From Paenibacillus sp. SZ31 (GTDB taxonomy: Bacteria > Bacillota > Bacilli > Paenibacillales > Paenibacillaceae): 64,000 nt of DNA. Made by a program: the position numbers and the translations under genes. Position 1 is the first letter of the stretch. Every line of letters begins with the position of its first letter. The notes beneath the pieces are model-generated. The model was given only the letters and a program-made list of their open reading frames with translations. It made no database searches and was not told the origin of the DNA. Shown here one piece after another: positions 28,224-61,551 of the stretch. The stretch is from the NCBI RefSeq assembly GCF_012912005.1, contig NZ_JABBEA010000013.1:62001-126000 (forward strand). Direction: 5' to 3'.

Positions 28224-28238
28224 TGATAATGGTTATCA
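28224..28238. promoter_or_regulatory. Fur box upstream of the first AraC-lipoprotein frame
   Basis: TGATAATGGTTATCA fits the 7-1-7 Fur consensus TGATAATNATTATCA with one mismatch. It is 55 bases before the ATG at 28293, so iron repression of that gene is expected. Confidence 0.8.
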
Positions 28239-28292: not shown

Positions 28293-30254
28293 ATGTGGAA
28301 TGATTATTATATCCTCTGGAACTATGCTGCTGTGAGTATAACAGATATCCGATACATGGAATTTGGGGCATATGAGGAGATGAAATACAAATTTCCGACA
28401 AGTACATTTGTACTCACCATTCAGGGTGAGGCTGGAGTCACAATAGACAACAAAACGTATGAAGTGGACCGCTTTTATGTTCTCCATGGGGGAAAAGGGA
28501 GTAAGTTGGTTATTCAAGCCGGCGAGGCCGGATTACGCATGTATTACTTGATGTACAAAGCGAACCTGCCCAGTGGCGGGAGAAATGATCTGGGAAGGTT
28601 AATGGAGCGTATTAATCCGTTCCAGTTGAACTATGGGTTTAGCCCCGATACACCAACCATTCTATATGAGCAATTGAAGCAGATGCACTTTTTGTGGGAT
28701 CAAAAGAATCCTATTCAGCACTTTCAGGCCAAGAGTTTGTTCTATCCCTTTGTGGAGCAGATATCATCACAGATTCCTCGTGTATCCAATCGCTATCCGA
28801 GTATTGTGGATCAGGTGAGCAAAGTCATTGAAATTATAGAGTCCTCCTACACCAAGCCGCTTACGCTGCATGCTTTGGCAGAAATGATCGGCTTGAGCCC
28901 AAGGAGTTTGTCACGAAAGTTCAAGCAGTCGACCGGAACCAGTCCCATTGATTATCTGATTCAGTTTCGTTTGTTCAAAGCCAAGGAGATGTTGCTGCAG
29001 ACAGACGCCACGTTGGATGAGATCGCAGCAGGTATCGGTTATCCTGATGGATATTATTTGGGACGTATGTTCAAGAAACACACAGGTCTTTCTCCTTTGC
29101 AATTCAAAGAGAAGACCTCAGCACCTCTGTATTGGCCTGATCTGACATCAGGTGTGGCTCGAAATGACATTTTCAGAGGCGGAAGTGGAAGGTATGTTTA
29201 TAGTGATGGTGATAATCATTATCAATATAAGCATGGAGGGTCAATAAATATGAACAGACAGACAAGAACGGGAATGCTGCTTAGTATTTTACTAAGTCTT
29301 ACGTTACTGCTAAGTGCCTGCTCAACAGGTGTTGCCAGTAATTCGAGCGGAGATGCATCCGGAAGCAAAAGTGCGTCAAGTTCAACGAACACAGTAACAG
29401 CGGATAATCAAACCAAAACATCTGAACCACGTACAATTTCAACGGTGAAGGGAGATATTACAATCCCTGCTGAACCTAAACGGATTGTGGTTGACTTGTA
29501 TCTGGGAAGTCTGATCGCCCTGGGGATTAAACCTGTGGGTACACCGGAGATGAACCTGAAGAATCCATATTTTATCGAATCACTTGAGGGTGTGCAGAAT
29601 ATTGGTGAATATGAAACCATTTCTCTCGAAAAGGTGTTGGAACTTGAACCGGATCTCATTGTAACAGGTAATCCTGATTTATTTGATTCCTTTAGCAAAA
29701 TTGCGCCTACCTTGGTTGTTCCTTATGGCGAATTGAAAAACACCCATGAAGAGATCGCCTACTTTGGGGAAGTGCTGAATAAAGAAAAAGAGTCCGAGGC
29801 ATGGTTAGCAGATTATGACGCAAGAATTGCGGATGCCAAGAAACGCGTTGGTGAGGCGATTGATCCAGCAGCCGAGGTGTCGGTCATGCAGTTCTATGAT
29901 AAAGGACCGTTGGCCTTTGGTGATAATTTTGGTCGGGGAGGTCAGGCAGTCTATAGCGCGCTTGGTTTGAATCCTCCTGCAGATAAAAAAGAGATCTTAA
30001 TGAAGGATCAACTGGTTGAAGTTTCATCGGAAGCAATTCCTGAATTTGCCGGAGACTACATCATTCTAACAGCAGATAATCTGACCCTGGAAGAGTTGAA
30101 ATCCAAACCGGTCTGGAGCTCACTGGATGCGGTTAAGAATGATCGAGTGTTTATCTGGAGCCCGGATCGTTCATGGTACTTTGACCCGATTGCAACATTG
30201 GATCAGACCGAGGAATTGGCCGCGTGGTTTACGAAGTTATCTGGACAAAAATAA
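28293..30254 (+). CDS. AraC-family regulator in continuous frame with siderophore-binding lipoprotein, copy 1
   Basis: One 653-codon open frame holds two proteins. Residues 1-110 are a cupin-like sensor; about 165-280 form two AraC helix-turn-helix motifs (LHALAEMIGLSPRSLSRKFK, LDEIAAGIGYPDGYYLGRMF). After a 40-residue linker come Met320, a signal sequence with lipobox LLSAC (Cys343) and a periplasmic-binding fold (about 380-650) of the iron-siderophore class. The domain order recalls Bacillus Btr (YbbB), but Btr has no lipoprotein signal. A Fur box, SD and ATG lie inside the frame, so a separate lipoprotein is likely as well as, or instead of, a fusion. No permease or ATPase gene adjoins. 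Confidence 0.85.
   Translation: MWNDYYILWNYAAVSITDIRYMEFGAYEEMKYKFPTSTFVLTIQGEAGVTIDNKTYEVDRFYVLHGGKGSKLVIQAGEAGLRMYYLMYKANLPSGGRNDLGRLMERINPFQLNYGFSPDTPTILYEQLKQMHFLWDQKNPIQHFQAKSLFYPFVEQISSQIPRVSNRYPSIVDQVSKVIEIIESSYTKPLTLHALAEMIGLSPRSLSRKFKQSTGTSPIDYLIQFRLFKAKEMLLQTDATLDEIAAGIGYPDGYYLGRMFKKHTGLSPLQFKEKTSAPLYWPDLTSGVARNDIFRGGSGRYVYSDGDNHYQYKHGGSINMNRQTRTGMLLSILLSLTLLLSACSTGVASNSSGDASGSKSASSSTNTVTADNQTKTSEPRTISTVKGDITIPAEPKRIVVDLYLGSLIALGIKPVGTPEMNLKNPYFIESLEGVQNIGEYETISLEKVLELEPDLIVTGNPDLFDSFSKIAPTLVVPYGELKNTHEEIAYFGEVLNKEKESEAWLADYDARIADAKKRVGEAIDPAAEVSVMQFYDKGPLAFGDNFGRGGQAVYSALGLNPPADKKEILMKDQLVEVSSEAIPEFAGDYIILTADNLTLEELKSKPVWSSLDAVKNDRVFIWSPDRSWYFDPIATLDQTEELAAWFTKLSGQK
29210..29224. 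promoter_or_regulatory. Perfect Fur box inside the coding frame
   Basis: TGATAATCATTATCA is an exact 7-1-7 Fur palindrome, translated in frame as part of DNHYQY. It lies 25 bases before the internal ATG at 29250 and just upstream of that start's GGAGGG. Confidence 0.8.
29250..30254 (+). CDS. Iron-siderophore substrate-binding lipoprotein (internal start), copy 1
   Basis: ATG 29250 follows GGAGGG (29235-29240) by nine bases and begins a lipoprotein signal: basic MNRQTR, hydrophobic LLSILLSLTLLL and lipobox SAC with Cys24. The 334-residue product then has a Ser/Thr-rich tether and a type III binding-protein fold (ISTVKGDITIPAEPKRIV, ALGIKPVGTPE, LEPDLIVTGNPD, NFGRGGQAVYSALGL). Such proteins deliver ferric siderophores to an ABC importer at the membrane. 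The transporter must be elsewhere in the genome. Confidence 0.75.
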   Translation: MNRQTRTGMLLSILLSLTLLLSACSTGVASNSSGDASGSKSASSSTNTVTADNQTKTSEPRTISTVKGDITIPAEPKRIVVDLYLGSLIALGIKPVGTPEMNLKNPYFIESLEGVQNIGEYETISLEKVLELEPDLIVTGNPDLFDSFSKIAPTLVVPYGELKNTHEEIAYFGEVLNKEKESEAWLADYDARIADAKKRVGEAIDPAAEVSVMQFYDKGPLAFGDNFGRGGQAVYSALGLNPPADKKEILMKDQLVEVSSEAIPEFAGDYIILTADNLTLEELKSKPVWSSLDAVKNDRVFIWSPDRSWYFDPIATLDQTEELAAWFTKLSGQK

Positions 30255-30306
30255 GCATAACATGTGCTTGATAAGATGAAATCCATTTCCAGTCTAAATT
30301 ACAGTT

Positions 30307-30325
30307 GATAATGAAAATTATTATC
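30307..30325. promoter_or_regulatory. Fur box upstream of the second AraC-lipoprotein frame
   Basis: GATAATGAAAATTATTATC matches 17 of 19 bases of the classic Fur box GATAATGATAATCATTATC. Confidence 0.8.
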
Positions 30326-30443
30326 ATCTATAATGAGAGATATATTAGTGAACCTCTGCTATTCATATGTTATCGGATGTGTGGCAGAATGATGACCTTG
30401 TAAGGTCTTTGTTCCGGGTGAGGCTGGGATTGGAGAGTATTCA

Positions 30444-32420
30444 ATGCAATTAGACGAACAGATGAAATGCTGGAATCATGCCGCTGTTAAGGTTCTGGAT
30501 ATACGCCGGATCGTTATGGAGGCGGGAGCGCAACTGGATGCCTATACACTTCCGGCAAATGGTTTTATATATACGATTCGAGGATCGGCTCAACTTCAAT
30601 TAGATGGACAAACATACAAGGCAGAGCGATTTTACATGCTTCATGGGGCGAAAGGATCTTCACTGGATATTCAAACCAACGAAGATTTTGAATATATTCT
30701 GCTGTATTACAGAGCATTCCTTGCCTTTCCTAGTTATCGCAAAAAGTGGTTATTGGCACAGCCAGAGGTTGCACCGTTCTCTTTGCAATATGGATTTACG
30801 CCAAGTAGTCCACTTGGATTGTTACGTTACCTTGATGAGCTTGAGGATGCATGGGCACAGTCTGGCAGTTTGGATCTGCTTCATACGAAAAGTTTATTTT
30901 ACCAATTCATTCATGAAATAATGGTTCAGCTCGCAGAGCAGGAGATCAAAACAGAACTTGCTGATCCGGTGAAACAAACCCTTCGTTACATACAGAACCA
31001 TTACAGGGAACAGGTCACACTTGATTTCCTGGCTGAACAATTCAACTATAGCTCCCGGCATTTATCCATGCAATTCAAACGACAGACGGGTTACAGTCCG
31101 ATTGATTATTTAATTCAGACCCGAATCGCCAAGGCTCGCAATCTCCTTTTGCGATCGGATGCAACGCTGAGTGAAATTTCAGCAGAAGTGGGTTATTCGG
31201 ATGTGTATTATTTTAGTCGTATATTCAAAAAACATGTAGGGATCTCTCCGATTCTATACCAACGAAAGATGAGAGAAGAGTCGCGAAGAGAGGATCGTCC
31301 ATTGCAAATCTCTGAATCGTCCATTGGCCGGAGATGGAAGTCGGGATATATTGATTATGAGAATCATTATCAATATATAGACGGAGGGTCTACATCAATG
31401 AAAAGAAGAAAAACAAGTTCCAGTATGATCATGGTTGCATTATTGAGCATAACGATGCTCCTCGCAGCCTGCTCTTCAGGTACAGCAACAACAACACCAG
31501 CAGCTGGCGAAGGAACGGGTGCCAGTTCCAATAACAGCAGTACGGCAGTGTCATCGGACACGGGAAGCCAGACGAACAAAGACAATGAAACACGCACAGT
31601 CTCAACGGTTAAGGGTGACGTGGTTGTTCCAGCCAATCCCAAACGGGTTGTTGTATTGTATCTCCAGGGGGATGTCGTCGCACTTGGAGTTAAGCCAATC
31701 GCTACCTCAGATGTATATGACGGGGCTGCATACAAGAGTGAGCTTGAAGGTGTAAATGCACTGGGTACTTGGTTTGAACCGAATCCTGAAGCTGTTATTG
31801 ATCTTGATCCGGATCTGATTATCGTTCCTTCAGAAGAGACGTATACGTTATTAAAAGATATTGCACCTACGGTATATATTCCGTATGAAAAATTGTCTAC
31901 AGAAGAAAGACTCCATAGTATAGCGAGTATTTTTGGAAAAGAGCAGGAAGCTGAGACGTTAATCAATAATCTCAACACCAAAGTTGAAGAAAGTAAGAAG
32001 ACTCTTGCAGATGCAGGCATACTGGACAAAACTATCTCTATTGTGGAGGGCGGTTTGAAAGGTATGGTCATTGTAGAGAGCAAGCAATTTGGCCGGGGAT
32101 CTCAGGCGGTATATGAGTACTTGGGAATGAAAGCACCTGAAGTCGTACAGAAGAAAATTGATGTGGTTTCGGACGCAGCAGGCTCCAACATCTCCATGGA
32201 AGTACTTCCTGAATATATCGGGGACTATGTGTTTCGCTCGGTGTATGAAGGAGCAGATAACTTGACGGATAATCCAATATGGAGCAGTATCCCTGCGATC
32301 AAAGAAGGTCGTCTGATTGAGATTGATTTTGATTTCTTCTATTATTCGGATATTTATTCAATCAATAAACAACTTGATTTTGTCGTGGAAAAGCTGTTGG
32401 CGGCTCCAAGAGCACAATAG
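30444..32420 (+). CDS. AraC-family regulator in continuous frame with siderophore-binding lipoprotein, copy 2
   Basis: A 658-codon paralogue of the preceding frame with the same plan: cupin-like sensor (1-115), AraC DNA-binding domain (about 165-275; LDFLAEQFNYSSRHLSMQFK, LSEISAEVGYSDVYYFSRIF), an open linker, then Met319, signal and lipobox LLAAC with Cys343, the same residue number as copy 1. The binding domain ends near 655. Identity with copy 1 is moderate and the linkers have diverged, yet both stay open. ATG 30444 has a GGAG upstream. Role: probably iron-siderophore sensing and uptake, inferred from family and Fur boxes. Confidence 0.85.
   Translation: MQLDEQMKCWNHAAVKVLDIRRIVMEAGAQLDAYTLPANGFIYTIRGSAQLQLDGQTYKAERFYMLHGAKGSSLDIQTNEDFEYILLYYRAFLAFPSYRKKWLLAQPEVAPFSLQYGFTPSSPLGLLRYLDELEDAWAQSGSLDLLHTKSLFYQFIHEIMVQLAEQEIKTELADPVKQTLRYIQNHYREQVTLDFLAEQFNYSSRHLSMQFKRQTGYSPIDYLIQTRIAKARNLLLRSDATLSEISAEVGYSDVYYFSRIFKKHVGISPILYQRKMREESRREDRPLQISESSIGRRWKSGYIDYENHYQYIDGGSTSMKRRKTSSSMIMVALLSITMLLAACSSGTATTTPAAGEGTGASSNNSSTAVSSDTGSQTNKDNETRTVSTVKGDVVVPANPKRVVVLYLQGDVVALGVKPIATSDVYDGAAYKSELEGVNALGTWFEPNPEAVIDLDPDLIIVPSEETYTLLKDIAPTVYIPYEKLSTEERLHSIASIFGKEQEAETLINNLNTKVEESKKTLADAGILDKTISIVEGGLKGMVIVESKQFGRGSQAVYEYLGMKAPEVVQKKIDVVSDAAGSNISMEVLPEYIGDYVFRSVYEGADNLTDNPIWSSIPAIKEGRLIEIDFDFFYYSDIYSINKQLDFVVEKLLAAPRAQ
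31353..31372. promoter_or_regulatory. Fur box inside the second coding frame
   Basis: GATTATGAGAATCATTATCA matches 17 of 19 Fur-box bases and is translated as part of YENHYQY. TTGATT (31351) and TATATA (31374) flank it with a 17-base spacer like a promoter, but the start point would fall in the SD, so an internal promoter is uncertain. Confidence 0.7.
31398..32420 (+). CDS. Iron-siderophore substrate-binding lipoprotein (internal start), copy 2
   Basis: ATG 31398 lies nine bases after GGAGGG (31383-31388), the same spacing as in copy 1. The 340-residue product starts MKRRKTSSSMIMVALLS and has lipobox LLAAC (Cys25), a Thr/Ser/Gly tether and a binding-protein fold (VSTVKGDVVVPANPKRVVVL, ALGVKPIAT, IDLDPDLIIVPSEE, QFGRGSQAVYEYLGM). 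The binding residues differ from copy 1, so the ligands may differ. It could also exist only as the C-terminal part of the longer frame. Confidence 0.75.
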   Translation: MKRRKTSSSMIMVALLSITMLLAACSSGTATTTPAAGEGTGASSNNSSTAVSSDTGSQTNKDNETRTVSTVKGDVVVPANPKRVVVLYLQGDVVALGVKPIATSDVYDGAAYKSELEGVNALGTWFEPNPEAVIDLDPDLIIVPSEETYTLLKDIAPTVYIPYEKLSTEERLHSIASIFGKEQEAETLINNLNTKVEESKKTLADAGILDKTISIVEGGLKGMVIVESKQFGRGSQAVYEYLGMKAPEVVQKKIDVVSDAAGSNISMEVLPEYIGDYVFRSVYEGADNLTDNPIWSSIPAIKEGRLIEIDFDFFYYSDIYSINKQLDFVVEKLLAAPRAQ

Positions 32421-32521
32421 TGAAGAGCGAACTTGTTGATAGAAGTTTTGTACAAGAAATGTTTGTTTTTTAGCCATTGTAATTTGATAAGATTACCATT
32501 AAACTAGGATTTAAGTGATAA

Positions 32522-32536
32522 TGAGAATCGATATCA
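32522..32536. promoter_or_regulatory. Fur box upstream of the ferredoxin-NADP reductase gene
   Basis: TGAGAATCGATATCA matches 12 of 14 fixed positions of the 7-1-7 Fur consensus, 44 bases before the start. Confidence 0.65.
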
Positions 32537-32579
32537 AATACTCGATGTTCTGGATCGAATTAACGGAGGTATTTTTAAT

Positions 32580-33617
32580 ATGAATCAGCAGTTGGAACTT
32601 TATGATGTAACCATTATCGGCGGTGGCCCAGCGGGCATGTACTCTGCCTTTTATAGCGGCATGCGGGATATGAAGACCAAGTTGATTGAGGCACGTGACA
32701 GATTGGGCGGTCGCATGCTCTTTTATCCGGAGAAAATGATCTGGGATGTTGGAGGTGTGACGCCAATTCTATGTGAAGATCTGATCAAACAATTGGAAGA
32801 ACAGGCACGAACTTTCGAGCCAACGCTTGTATTTGAACAACAGATCGAAGGATTCGAACGTCAACCTGATGGCACGATTCTGTTAACTTCTGCAACAGGT
32901 GAACAACACTGGACACGTACTGTCATTTTGGCAATCGGTTATGGTATATATAAAATGGCCAAGCTGGAGCTTGAAGGTGCAGATCGTTATGAGGTGAGCA
33001 ATCTGCACTATACGGTGCAGGAACTCGAGCCATTCCGTGGTAAGCGGGTGCTGATCTCAGGTGGAGGCGACTCTGCTGTAGACTGGGCGAATGAACTGGA
33101 AGCACTGGCAGAGAAAGTTACGGTTGTGCATCGTCGTGACCGCTTTGGCGGGCTGGAGCGTAATGTACTGCGCATGAGAGAATCCTCTGTAGATATCCGG
33201 ACACCTTATGCGGTAGAGACACTGCATAGTTTGAGCGGCGATGTGATTGAGCAGGTGACCATTTCACACGTGGACACAGGTGAAACTGAACTGCTTGAAG
33301 TGGATGCTGTCATCGTAAACCATGGCATGAAGAGTGATTTTGGTCCAATCCGTGATTGGGGACTTGATCTTGGTGAATGGCATGTGACTACGACGGATAG
33401 ATTGCAAACGAATATTCCTGGCGTATTTGGCGCAGGCGATTTTGTAGATTATGGTAGCAAGCTGTACCTGATTGCGGGTACTTTCACGGATGCAGCCCTA
33501 GCGGTAAACAGTGCGAAGCTTTACATGGACCCTGAAGCGGAGAAAGTGGCTTATGTTTCTTCCCATAACAGTCGCTTTAAGGAGAAAAATAAAGCACTTG
33601 GTGTTGTAGAAGAATAA
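32580..33617 (+). CDS. Ferredoxin--NADP(+) reductase, thioredoxin-reductase-like
   Basis: The 345-residue flavoprotein has an FAD loop [19 protein letters not shown], an NADP loop [15 protein letters not shown] and the FAD end motif [15 protein letters not shown]. It lacks the CxxC of thioredoxin reductase, which fits the YumC/YcgT class. Bacillus subtilis ycgT is Fur-regulated, and a Fur box lies here too, so the enzyme probably supplies electrons for iron release from siderophores or iron-sulfur repair. ATG 32580 follows CGGAGGT. A strong terminator follows. Confidence 0.9.
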
Positions 33618-61368: not shown

Positions 61369-61387
61369 CCAATTAATAACGAAAGCA

Positions 61388-61551
61388 ATCCTTCAGGGCA
61401 GGGTGCGATTCCCTACCGGCGGTGATGCAGGAAGTGTAAGGACACAAGTCCAGCACTTGATGCAAAGTCCGTGACCTGTCTGCCTATGGCAGATGGCTGA
61501 TCTGGTGTAATTCCAGAACCGACAGTATAGTCTGGATGGGAGAAGGAGAGG
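61388..61551 (+). ncRNA. FMN riboswitch (RFN element)
   Basis: The RFN aptamer is complete: CTTCAGGGCAGGGTG at the 5' end, TTCCCTACCGGCGGTGATG, AGTCCGTGACC, GGCAGATGGCTGATCTGGTG, AATTCCAGAACCGACAGTAT and AGTCTGGATGGGAGAAGGAG at the 3' end. It binds FMN and represses the riboflavin genes downstream. A terminator lies about 250 bases further on. Confidence 0.96.

Follow-up and report, generated by a model that had tools for sequence, protein, structure and literature searches.

An AraC-type regulator and a siderophore-binding lipoprotein in one open frame, with predicted regulatory DNA inside the coding linker

A regulator half and a lipoprotein half in one chain

The window, by which we mean the whole 64-kb stretch of DNA that we analysed, contains an open reading frame (gene 1) that runs exactly from 28293 to 30254 and encodes 653 residues. 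The first-pass annotation had described this frame as an AraC regulator and a siderophore-binding lipoprotein joined without interruption, and the 43 codons between residue 276, where the AraC domain ends, and Met320 are indeed free of stops. The perfect Fur box, the Shine-Dalgarno (SD) sequence, the ATG at 29250, the signal sequence and the lipobox cysteine that it had read from this region were all found again in their places. Three things were absent from it: a tandem paralogue (gene 2), the family-wide recurrence of the frame, and an AraC direct-repeat operator with −35 and −10 elements just upstream of the Fur box. The coding features, with the upstream Fur box of gene 1, are as follows.

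28224..28238, + strand: Fur box TGATAATGGTTATCA 5' of full-length gene 1 (13/14 match)
28293..30254, + strand: fused gene 1, with AraC regulator, linker, signal helix and lipobox, and siderophore-binding domain, 653 aa (ORF, domain search, AlphaFold)
28293..29120, + strand: gene 1 AraC half, residues 1–276, cupin-like fold and two HTH (HTH_18, E=1.8e-22)
29250..29318, + strand: gene 1 predicted internal start Met320 (ATG at 29250) and lipoprotein signal peptide (helix 326–342)
29319..29321, + strand: gene 1 lipobox cysteine, Cys343 (Cys in 53/53 linker clusters, a class picked with a lipobox pattern)
29421..30254, + strand: gene 1 FhuD-type siderophore-binding domain, residues 377–653 (Peripla_BP_2, FhuD and FhuD2 matches)
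30444..32420, + strand: fused gene 2, tandem paralogue, 658 aa, architecture as gene 1 (ORF, domain search)

The HTH_18 match of gene 1 covers residues 195–273, and the double HTH places the N-terminal half in the AraC family; a search among solved structures found no close relative of this part. The C-terminal half combines a signal peptide, a lipobox and a Peripla_BP_2 fold (residues 403–624, E=4.8e-28), the features of a siderophore-binding lipoprotein. Its closest solved folds are FhuD2, FhuD and FtsB, all hydroxamate siderophore-binding lipoproteins (FhuD 3hxp, E=7e-45; FhuD2 4b8y, E=1e-21 by Foldseek). Gene 1 shares with them the signal peptide, the lipobox, a flexible tether and the fold, but its lipoprotein forms the C-terminal end of a longer frame that starts with a regulator. 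From the similarity in fold and sequence, we infer that the ligand is a hydroxamate-type ferri-siderophore. The AlphaFold model has two confident halves, the cupin-HTH part (1–276, pLDDT ~90) and the binding domain (377–652); they are separated by a disordered linker (278–325), a signal or anchor helix (326–342) and a disordered tether (344–376). Among gene 1 orthologues, dN/dS was 0.12 in the AraC part, 0.24 in the linker and 0.05 in the binding domain, and dN was 0 in the signal peptide. Judged from these ratios, purifying selection is acting on the AraC and binding halves alike.

Btr (YbbB) of Bacillus subtilis also joins an AraC-type DNA-binding part to a siderophore-binding domain, which is FeuA-like, in one chain; its gene adjoins a siderophore-binding lipoprotein gene and is Fur-linked (PMC9609785, PMC3896406). 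The likeness to Btr that had been proposed for gene 1 holds for the domain order, an AraC HTH followed by Peripla_BP_2 in one chain, but gene 1 is not Btr. The Btr model NF049932 (equivalog, cut-off 900 bits) scores 84.1 bits on gene 1 and 116.4 on gene 2, in both cases on the AraC part only and below the cut-off, and linker and signal differ. Btr has neither signal helix nor lipobox, whereas the gene 1 chain has helix 326–342 and Cys343; the target lipoprotein of Btr is a separate gene, and its binding domain is of another type. Btr-like systems use two binding domains, that of the regulator and that of the gene downstream of it, whereas each fused gene has one.

Gene 2 lies directly downstream of gene 1 and is ~35% identical to it. 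Directly after the two fused genes, the window contains a thioredoxin reductase-like pyridine nucleotide-disulphide oxidoreductase (32580-33617), possibly an iron-siderophore reductase, with a Fur-like stretch, TGATAATGAGAATCGATATCA, upstream at 32518-32538.

Recurrence of the open frame

We searched for the fused architecture in other genomes. With the full-length protein as the query, 32/40 genomes of the genus matched at E≤1e-80, mostly with fusions and sometimes with stand-alone lipoproteins, as did 37/118 genomes of the family at E≤1e-70. A search for related loci added Cohnella, Lysinibacillus, Clostridium, Scatolibacter and a Hungatella MAG. With the AraC part alone as the query, 60/149 genomes of the order matched versus 4/348 genomes across the phylum, showing that the fused family is centred on the Paenibacillus order. 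The 144 distinct linkers collected from Paenibacillales, Lysinibacillus and some Clostridia fell into 53 clusters at ~55% linker identity. The AraC tree separates 50 fused clusters from 19 Btr-like rows by a single branch (support 68); one origin is possible.

The fused linkers contain 0 stops in 2330 codons versus 162 expected, a comparison that is partly circular because the class was chosen as fused; sequences of one cluster are, moreover, related to each other. The sole unbiased test of the frame is the AraC-only search, which sampled 59 family and 149 order genomes, two overlapping sets. Nearly all of the ~150 matches listed lie in frames of 625–760 aa. Frames shorter than 600 aa numbered eight among the matches listed: three are cytoplasmic Btr-like fusions (L225–L227), and five (L220–L224) are genes decayed by nonsense, deletion or frameshift, four of these five being in one genome. 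An intact AraC gene with a stop in the linker followed by an intact lipoprotein gene was not found among the AraC-only matches listed. Stand-alone genes for related lipoproteins behaved differently: in 66/71, the 45 upstream codons contain in-frame stops, and the distance from Fur box to cysteine, taken modulo 3, is spread 25/18/16 over the three classes versus one class in 44/44 fused clusters. The genome with most of the decay, G025, belongs to the genus and carries four decaying copies (L220, L221, L222 and L223); its gene 1 orthologue has a large internal deletion, through which the beginning of the AraC part now runs directly into the last part of the binding domain.

These data bear on the plainest alternative, chance read-through of two genes of which only a short AraC protein and a short lipoprotein matter. 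The linker of gene 1 alone would permit it: a run of 43 codons has roughly a 1-in-8 chance of containing no stop ((61/64)^43 for uniform codons), as had been calculated before. Yet the frame is open in 144 distinct linkers, no clean split occurs among the AraC-only matches listed, and the frequent stop codons that orthologous linkers were checked for were not found. Since there is no stop in the linker, the AraC half cannot end ahead of the lipoprotein. As a general explanation, chance read-through was rejected on the frame data, and we give it next to no credence.

Selection of the fused class used a lipobox pattern, which makes its conserved cysteine partly a matter of construction; two members with long linkers (L091 and L126) were missed by that pattern. 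Some Clostridial members have a weaker direct repeat and no Fur box. Five of the Clostridial members (L124, L127, L131, L134 and L146) are without the internal Fur box and have kept a TATAAT-like −10, the internal start, the lipobox and the open frame.

Predicted regulatory DNA inside the coding linker

A promoter-consensus scan of the region returned promoter-like sites about as numerous as in shuffled sequence, and gene 1 has a weak −35, TTTTCA. Because the window alone did no better than shuffles, we rebuilt the promoter case on the 53 linker clusters; the argument for an internal promoter thus comes from comparison and not from the gene 1 sequence alone. Fur-like boxes exceeded expectation in the window itself: with up to 2 mismatches allowed, there are five versus 0.42 expected, and four of them are at genes 1 and 2. 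A promoter-like TTGATA-18-TATAAT lies upstream of gene 2 at 30305-30334. The elements predicted in the linker of gene 1, and in and upstream of gene 2, are listed below.

29139..29147, + strand: gene 1 putative AraC half-site 1, GATCTGACA, within the coding linker (direct repeat, lag 22 bp, n=52 clusters)
29161..29169, + strand: gene 1 putative AraC half-site 2, GAAATGACA, adjoining the −35 (direct repeat, lag 22 bp)
29170..29175, + strand: gene 1 internal predicted −35, TTTTCA (family consensus TTGNNN; t=12.0)
29193..29198, + strand: gene 1 internal predicted −10, TATGTT (family TATNNT), 17 bp from the −35 (t=15.5)
29210..29224, + strand: gene 1 internal Fur box, TGATAATCATTATCA, perfect, read in frame as D-N-H-Y-Q (third-base test, Fur scan)
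29235..29240, + strand: gene 1 internal SD, GGAGGG (family duplex energy)
30312..30326, + strand: gene 2 upstream Fur box (Fur scan)
31293..31323, + strand: gene 2 putative internal operator, direct repeat GATCGTCCA-N13-AATCGTCCA (family alignment)
31324..31352, + strand: gene 2 internal predicted promoter, TTGGCC-17-TATATT (consensus scan, family alignment)
31358..31372, + strand: gene 2 internal Fur box, TGAGAATCATTATCA (Fur scan)
31383..31388, + strand: gene 2 internal SD, GGAGGG (ATG at 31398, Cys at 31470-31472)

Nearly all linkers carry the same order of elements: direct repeat, −35, 17 bp, −10, usually a Fur box, a strong SD, ATG, signal peptide and lipobox. The family pattern reads G-A-T-N-N-T-C-C-A, 22 bp, A-T-N-N-T-C-C-A adjoining T-T-G, 17 bp, T-A-T-N-N-T; the sole cluster off this pattern, L109, reflects an alignment failure in which the lipobox pattern ended too early. 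The two half-sites agree at 5.67 of 9 positions at a lag of 22, versus 1.6–2.8 at other lags from 9 to 44, and they covary within sequences ~7 sd above permutation. Since they stand in different codon phases, their likeness cannot come from protein homology.

We then scored each element against synonymous shuffles of the same linkers (leave-one-out scores). The excess was large for half-site 1 (t=12.6), half-site 2 (t=22.3), the −35 and the −10 (t as listed), smaller for the region between the half-sites (t=5.1) and absent from the spacer, the negative control (t=1.7). The last T of the −10 is present in 52/52 clusters versus 50% expected. An internal Fur box matching at ≥12/14 positions occurs in 131/144 linkers, always in the same frame. 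Scored gene by gene against synonymous shuffles, the Fur box gave a weak result (9/53 at P<0.05) because the amino acids are themselves shaped by the box; the third bases resolved the matter, with T:C at 219:4 versus 147 T expected (z=10.3). The upstream linker also prefers T at third bases, though more weakly (z=3.8). At the internal SD, the mean duplex energy is −10.2 kcal/mol; synonymous versions average −9.1, and the 626 remaining in-frame Met codons −4.0. The energy at the internal SD is at or below −8.2 kcal/mol in 49/49. A Fur-like box also precedes the whole gene in 32/52 fused clusters versus 0.1 expected. Internal promoter, SD and start are thus conserved at the DNA level within an open frame, as in a nested gene, and these comparisons show selection at the DNA level on the predicted operator, promoter, Fur box and SD.

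The elements might instead be intergenic relics of the fusion event, carried in a gene that makes the fusion only. Stand-alone lipoprotein genes are often preceded by operator, Fur box and SD in the order of the fused linkers, and the presence of this order between Btr-like and stand-alone lipoprotein genes suggests where the linker came from. Relics would decay, however: the elements are conserved beyond the amino acids at ~37% AraC identity, the 17-bp spacer is not, and each half-site covaries with its partner as well as with the HTH. We regard the relic explanation as very improbable. Btr-like genes of this family lie ahead of stand-alone lipoprotein genes, with a Fur box and operator-like repeats in the gap. 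Such pairs were seen at L010, L128, L130, L133, L135, L136, L140 and L150–L152; their intergenic regions often contain repeats such as CATAATTGTCCATG, which resemble the half-sites embedded in the fusions.

We wondered which protein reads the operator. Class II activators of the AraC family, such as AraC at araI1-I2, bind two direct-repeat half-sites about two helical turns apart, of which the downstream one adjoins the −35. The half-sites of the fused genes are likewise about two turns apart (22 bp), with the downstream one adjoining the −35, but this operator lies within the coding sequence of the regulator itself and would drive the C-terminal part of the same gene. Once cupin and binding-domain similarity are taken out, operator similarity tracks that of the gene's own HTH (partial Mantel r=0.53, P=0.001), with no such tracking for the cupin (r=−0.15) or the SBP, the substrate-binding protein (r=0.02). 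Nearly all of the 20 best covarying columns are in the double-HTH region, the top one in the second helix-turn-helix. A genome search allowing up to 3 mismatches found no second match to the gene 1 operator, and the other matches to the gene 2 operator (2–3 mismatches) lie only inside three paralogues. The co-variation of HTH and operator, together with the lack of other matches at this stringency outside paralogous fused genes, makes the AraC half of the same gene the likeliest binder of its predicted operator, although more degenerate targets may exist.

A proposed circuit and its alternatives

Taken together, these results suggest a nested, self-regulating receptor gene with two products: a long regulator made of AraC half, membrane segment and SBP, and a short lipoprotein from the internal promoter. 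We put the probability of this reading at roughly 0.77. The fused frame and the co-variation of HTH and operator are shown by the sequence comparisons; the manufacture of both products, activation by bound ligand and a shared permease are what we infer from them. A transcript from the upstream promoter would encode the full-length polypeptide (AraC activator, linker, signal anchor and FhuD-like domain), and the internal promoter in the coding linker, under AraC and Fur control, would yield the siderophore-binding lipoprotein alone. Under iron limitation, Fur would leave both the upstream and the internal boxes. The full-length protein, at a low level, would sense its own ferri-siderophore through the binding domain; its AraC half would then activate the internal promoter within its own gene, and much more free lipoprotein would result, feeding a shared uptake permease.

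Because the AraC half has no stop, translation gives the fusion unless the chain is cut, and the conservation of promoter, operator and SD in the DNA itself makes the internal product very likely; this short product probably has its own transcript, under the control of the AraC half. Most simply, the binding domain would have two uses: sensing in the long form and transport, as a lipoprotein, in the short one. Genes nested in frame and read from internal starts, such as those for IF2 and the CheA isoforms, also give a long and an N-terminally shortened product, as predicted for gene 1; the difference is that the long form of gene 1 appears to be the transcription factor of the short form, and that the short form would be exported.

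The proposal that one gene gives a cytoplasmic sensor fusion and an exported lipoprotein had been made for this locus before. Comparison strongly supports the two products, the fusion and an internally started lipoprotein; the cytoplasmic placing of the sensor fares less well, since the hydrophobic helix and lipobox kept in the fusion make a membrane-anchored regulator with its binding domain outside at least as likely. We favour a fusion that spans the membrane with its N-terminus in and its C-terminus out. CadC, a membrane-bound one-component regulator, has a cytoplasmic DNA-binding domain, a single membrane segment and an outer sensor, the layout proposed here; gene 1 differs in its AraC type, in having a substrate-binding protein as the proposed sensor and in the lipobox of its membrane segment.

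If the helix stayed uninserted, the fusion would be a Btr-like cytoplasmic sensor of imported ferri-siderophore, and the exported lipoprotein would come only from the internal start. The nearest architectural relatives speak for this: Btr-like AraC-SBP fusions (L225–L227 and others) have signal-less, cytoplasmic binding domains, and the AraC N-terminus is soluble and folds ahead of the helix. In these relatives, however, the helix is missing and the linker of ~0–70 residues carries no signal, which suggests a different solution, and the signal-anchor make-up (an R/K-rich n-region and a hydrophobic core) is preserved across the fused clusters in a segment modelled as a helix. We consider the cytoplasmic sensor doubtful.

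The intact lipobox raises another issue: signal peptidase II could separate the halves, which makes a stable transmembrane regulator less likely. Lipidation at Cys343 followed by cleavage would give a membrane-tethered AraC part and an equal amount of lipoprotein, with the internal promoter topping up the latter. In keeping with such processing, the lipobox cysteine is present in all fused clusters, including the Clostridial ones without a Fur box. Processing does not account for why no free AraC half turned up as a separate gene among the AraC-only matches listed, and it would leave the internal SD, promoter and operator largely redundant, yet these are under strong selection at the DNA level. 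We think it unlikely.

Returning to the nested receptor gene, we give about even odds to an extended form of it: a family of transmembrane AraC receptors with a transport lipoprotein as the outer sensor and with the main operator embedded in the regulator's coding region, each gene a complete sense-and-amplify circuit, present in up to 11 copies per genome with paralogue-specific operator-HTH pairs.

If this is true, the long form detects a ligand and in response induces the short form from inside the gene that encodes both. The layout would be compact, with regulator, operator, promoter and target in one open frame, selected on DNA and frame together, and annotation of such genes as single proteins would overlook the operator and the second product alike. 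Duplicated circuits of this kind could account for the way in which a single cell adjusts its uptake of many foreign siderophores, and the matched HTH-operator pairs would be a natural data set for an AraC recognition code. A 2026 survey reports domain co-occurrence in 229/6,023 Peripla_BP_2 genes within siderophore clusters, with HTH_18 as the partner in 98.7% of cases, and ranks Paenibacillus first of the genera compared in the number of binding proteins per siderophore cluster, ~29:1 (PMC13293324). We found no description of the fused AraC-lipobox-SBP architecture in the open-access literature searched, nor of an embedded operator and promoter there or in the passages of the survey that we consulted.

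The genome (6.5 Mb, 32 contigs) contains 11 full-length fused copies, one of which carries a nonsense codon. No FecCD permease was found within ~7 kb of any of them, so that the lipoproteins would have to share permeases, and a plasmid search found no match covering the whole protein. In the copy with the nonsense codon (L228, G000:C6:63554-66500), a TAG interrupts the AraC half, whereas the part with internal promoter, signal peptide and binding domain is still open; this copy is a natural test of whether the internal product can work alone. Elsewhere in the window, and unrelated to the fused genes, an FMN riboswitch (Rfam RF00050, 104 bits) lies at 61385-61551.
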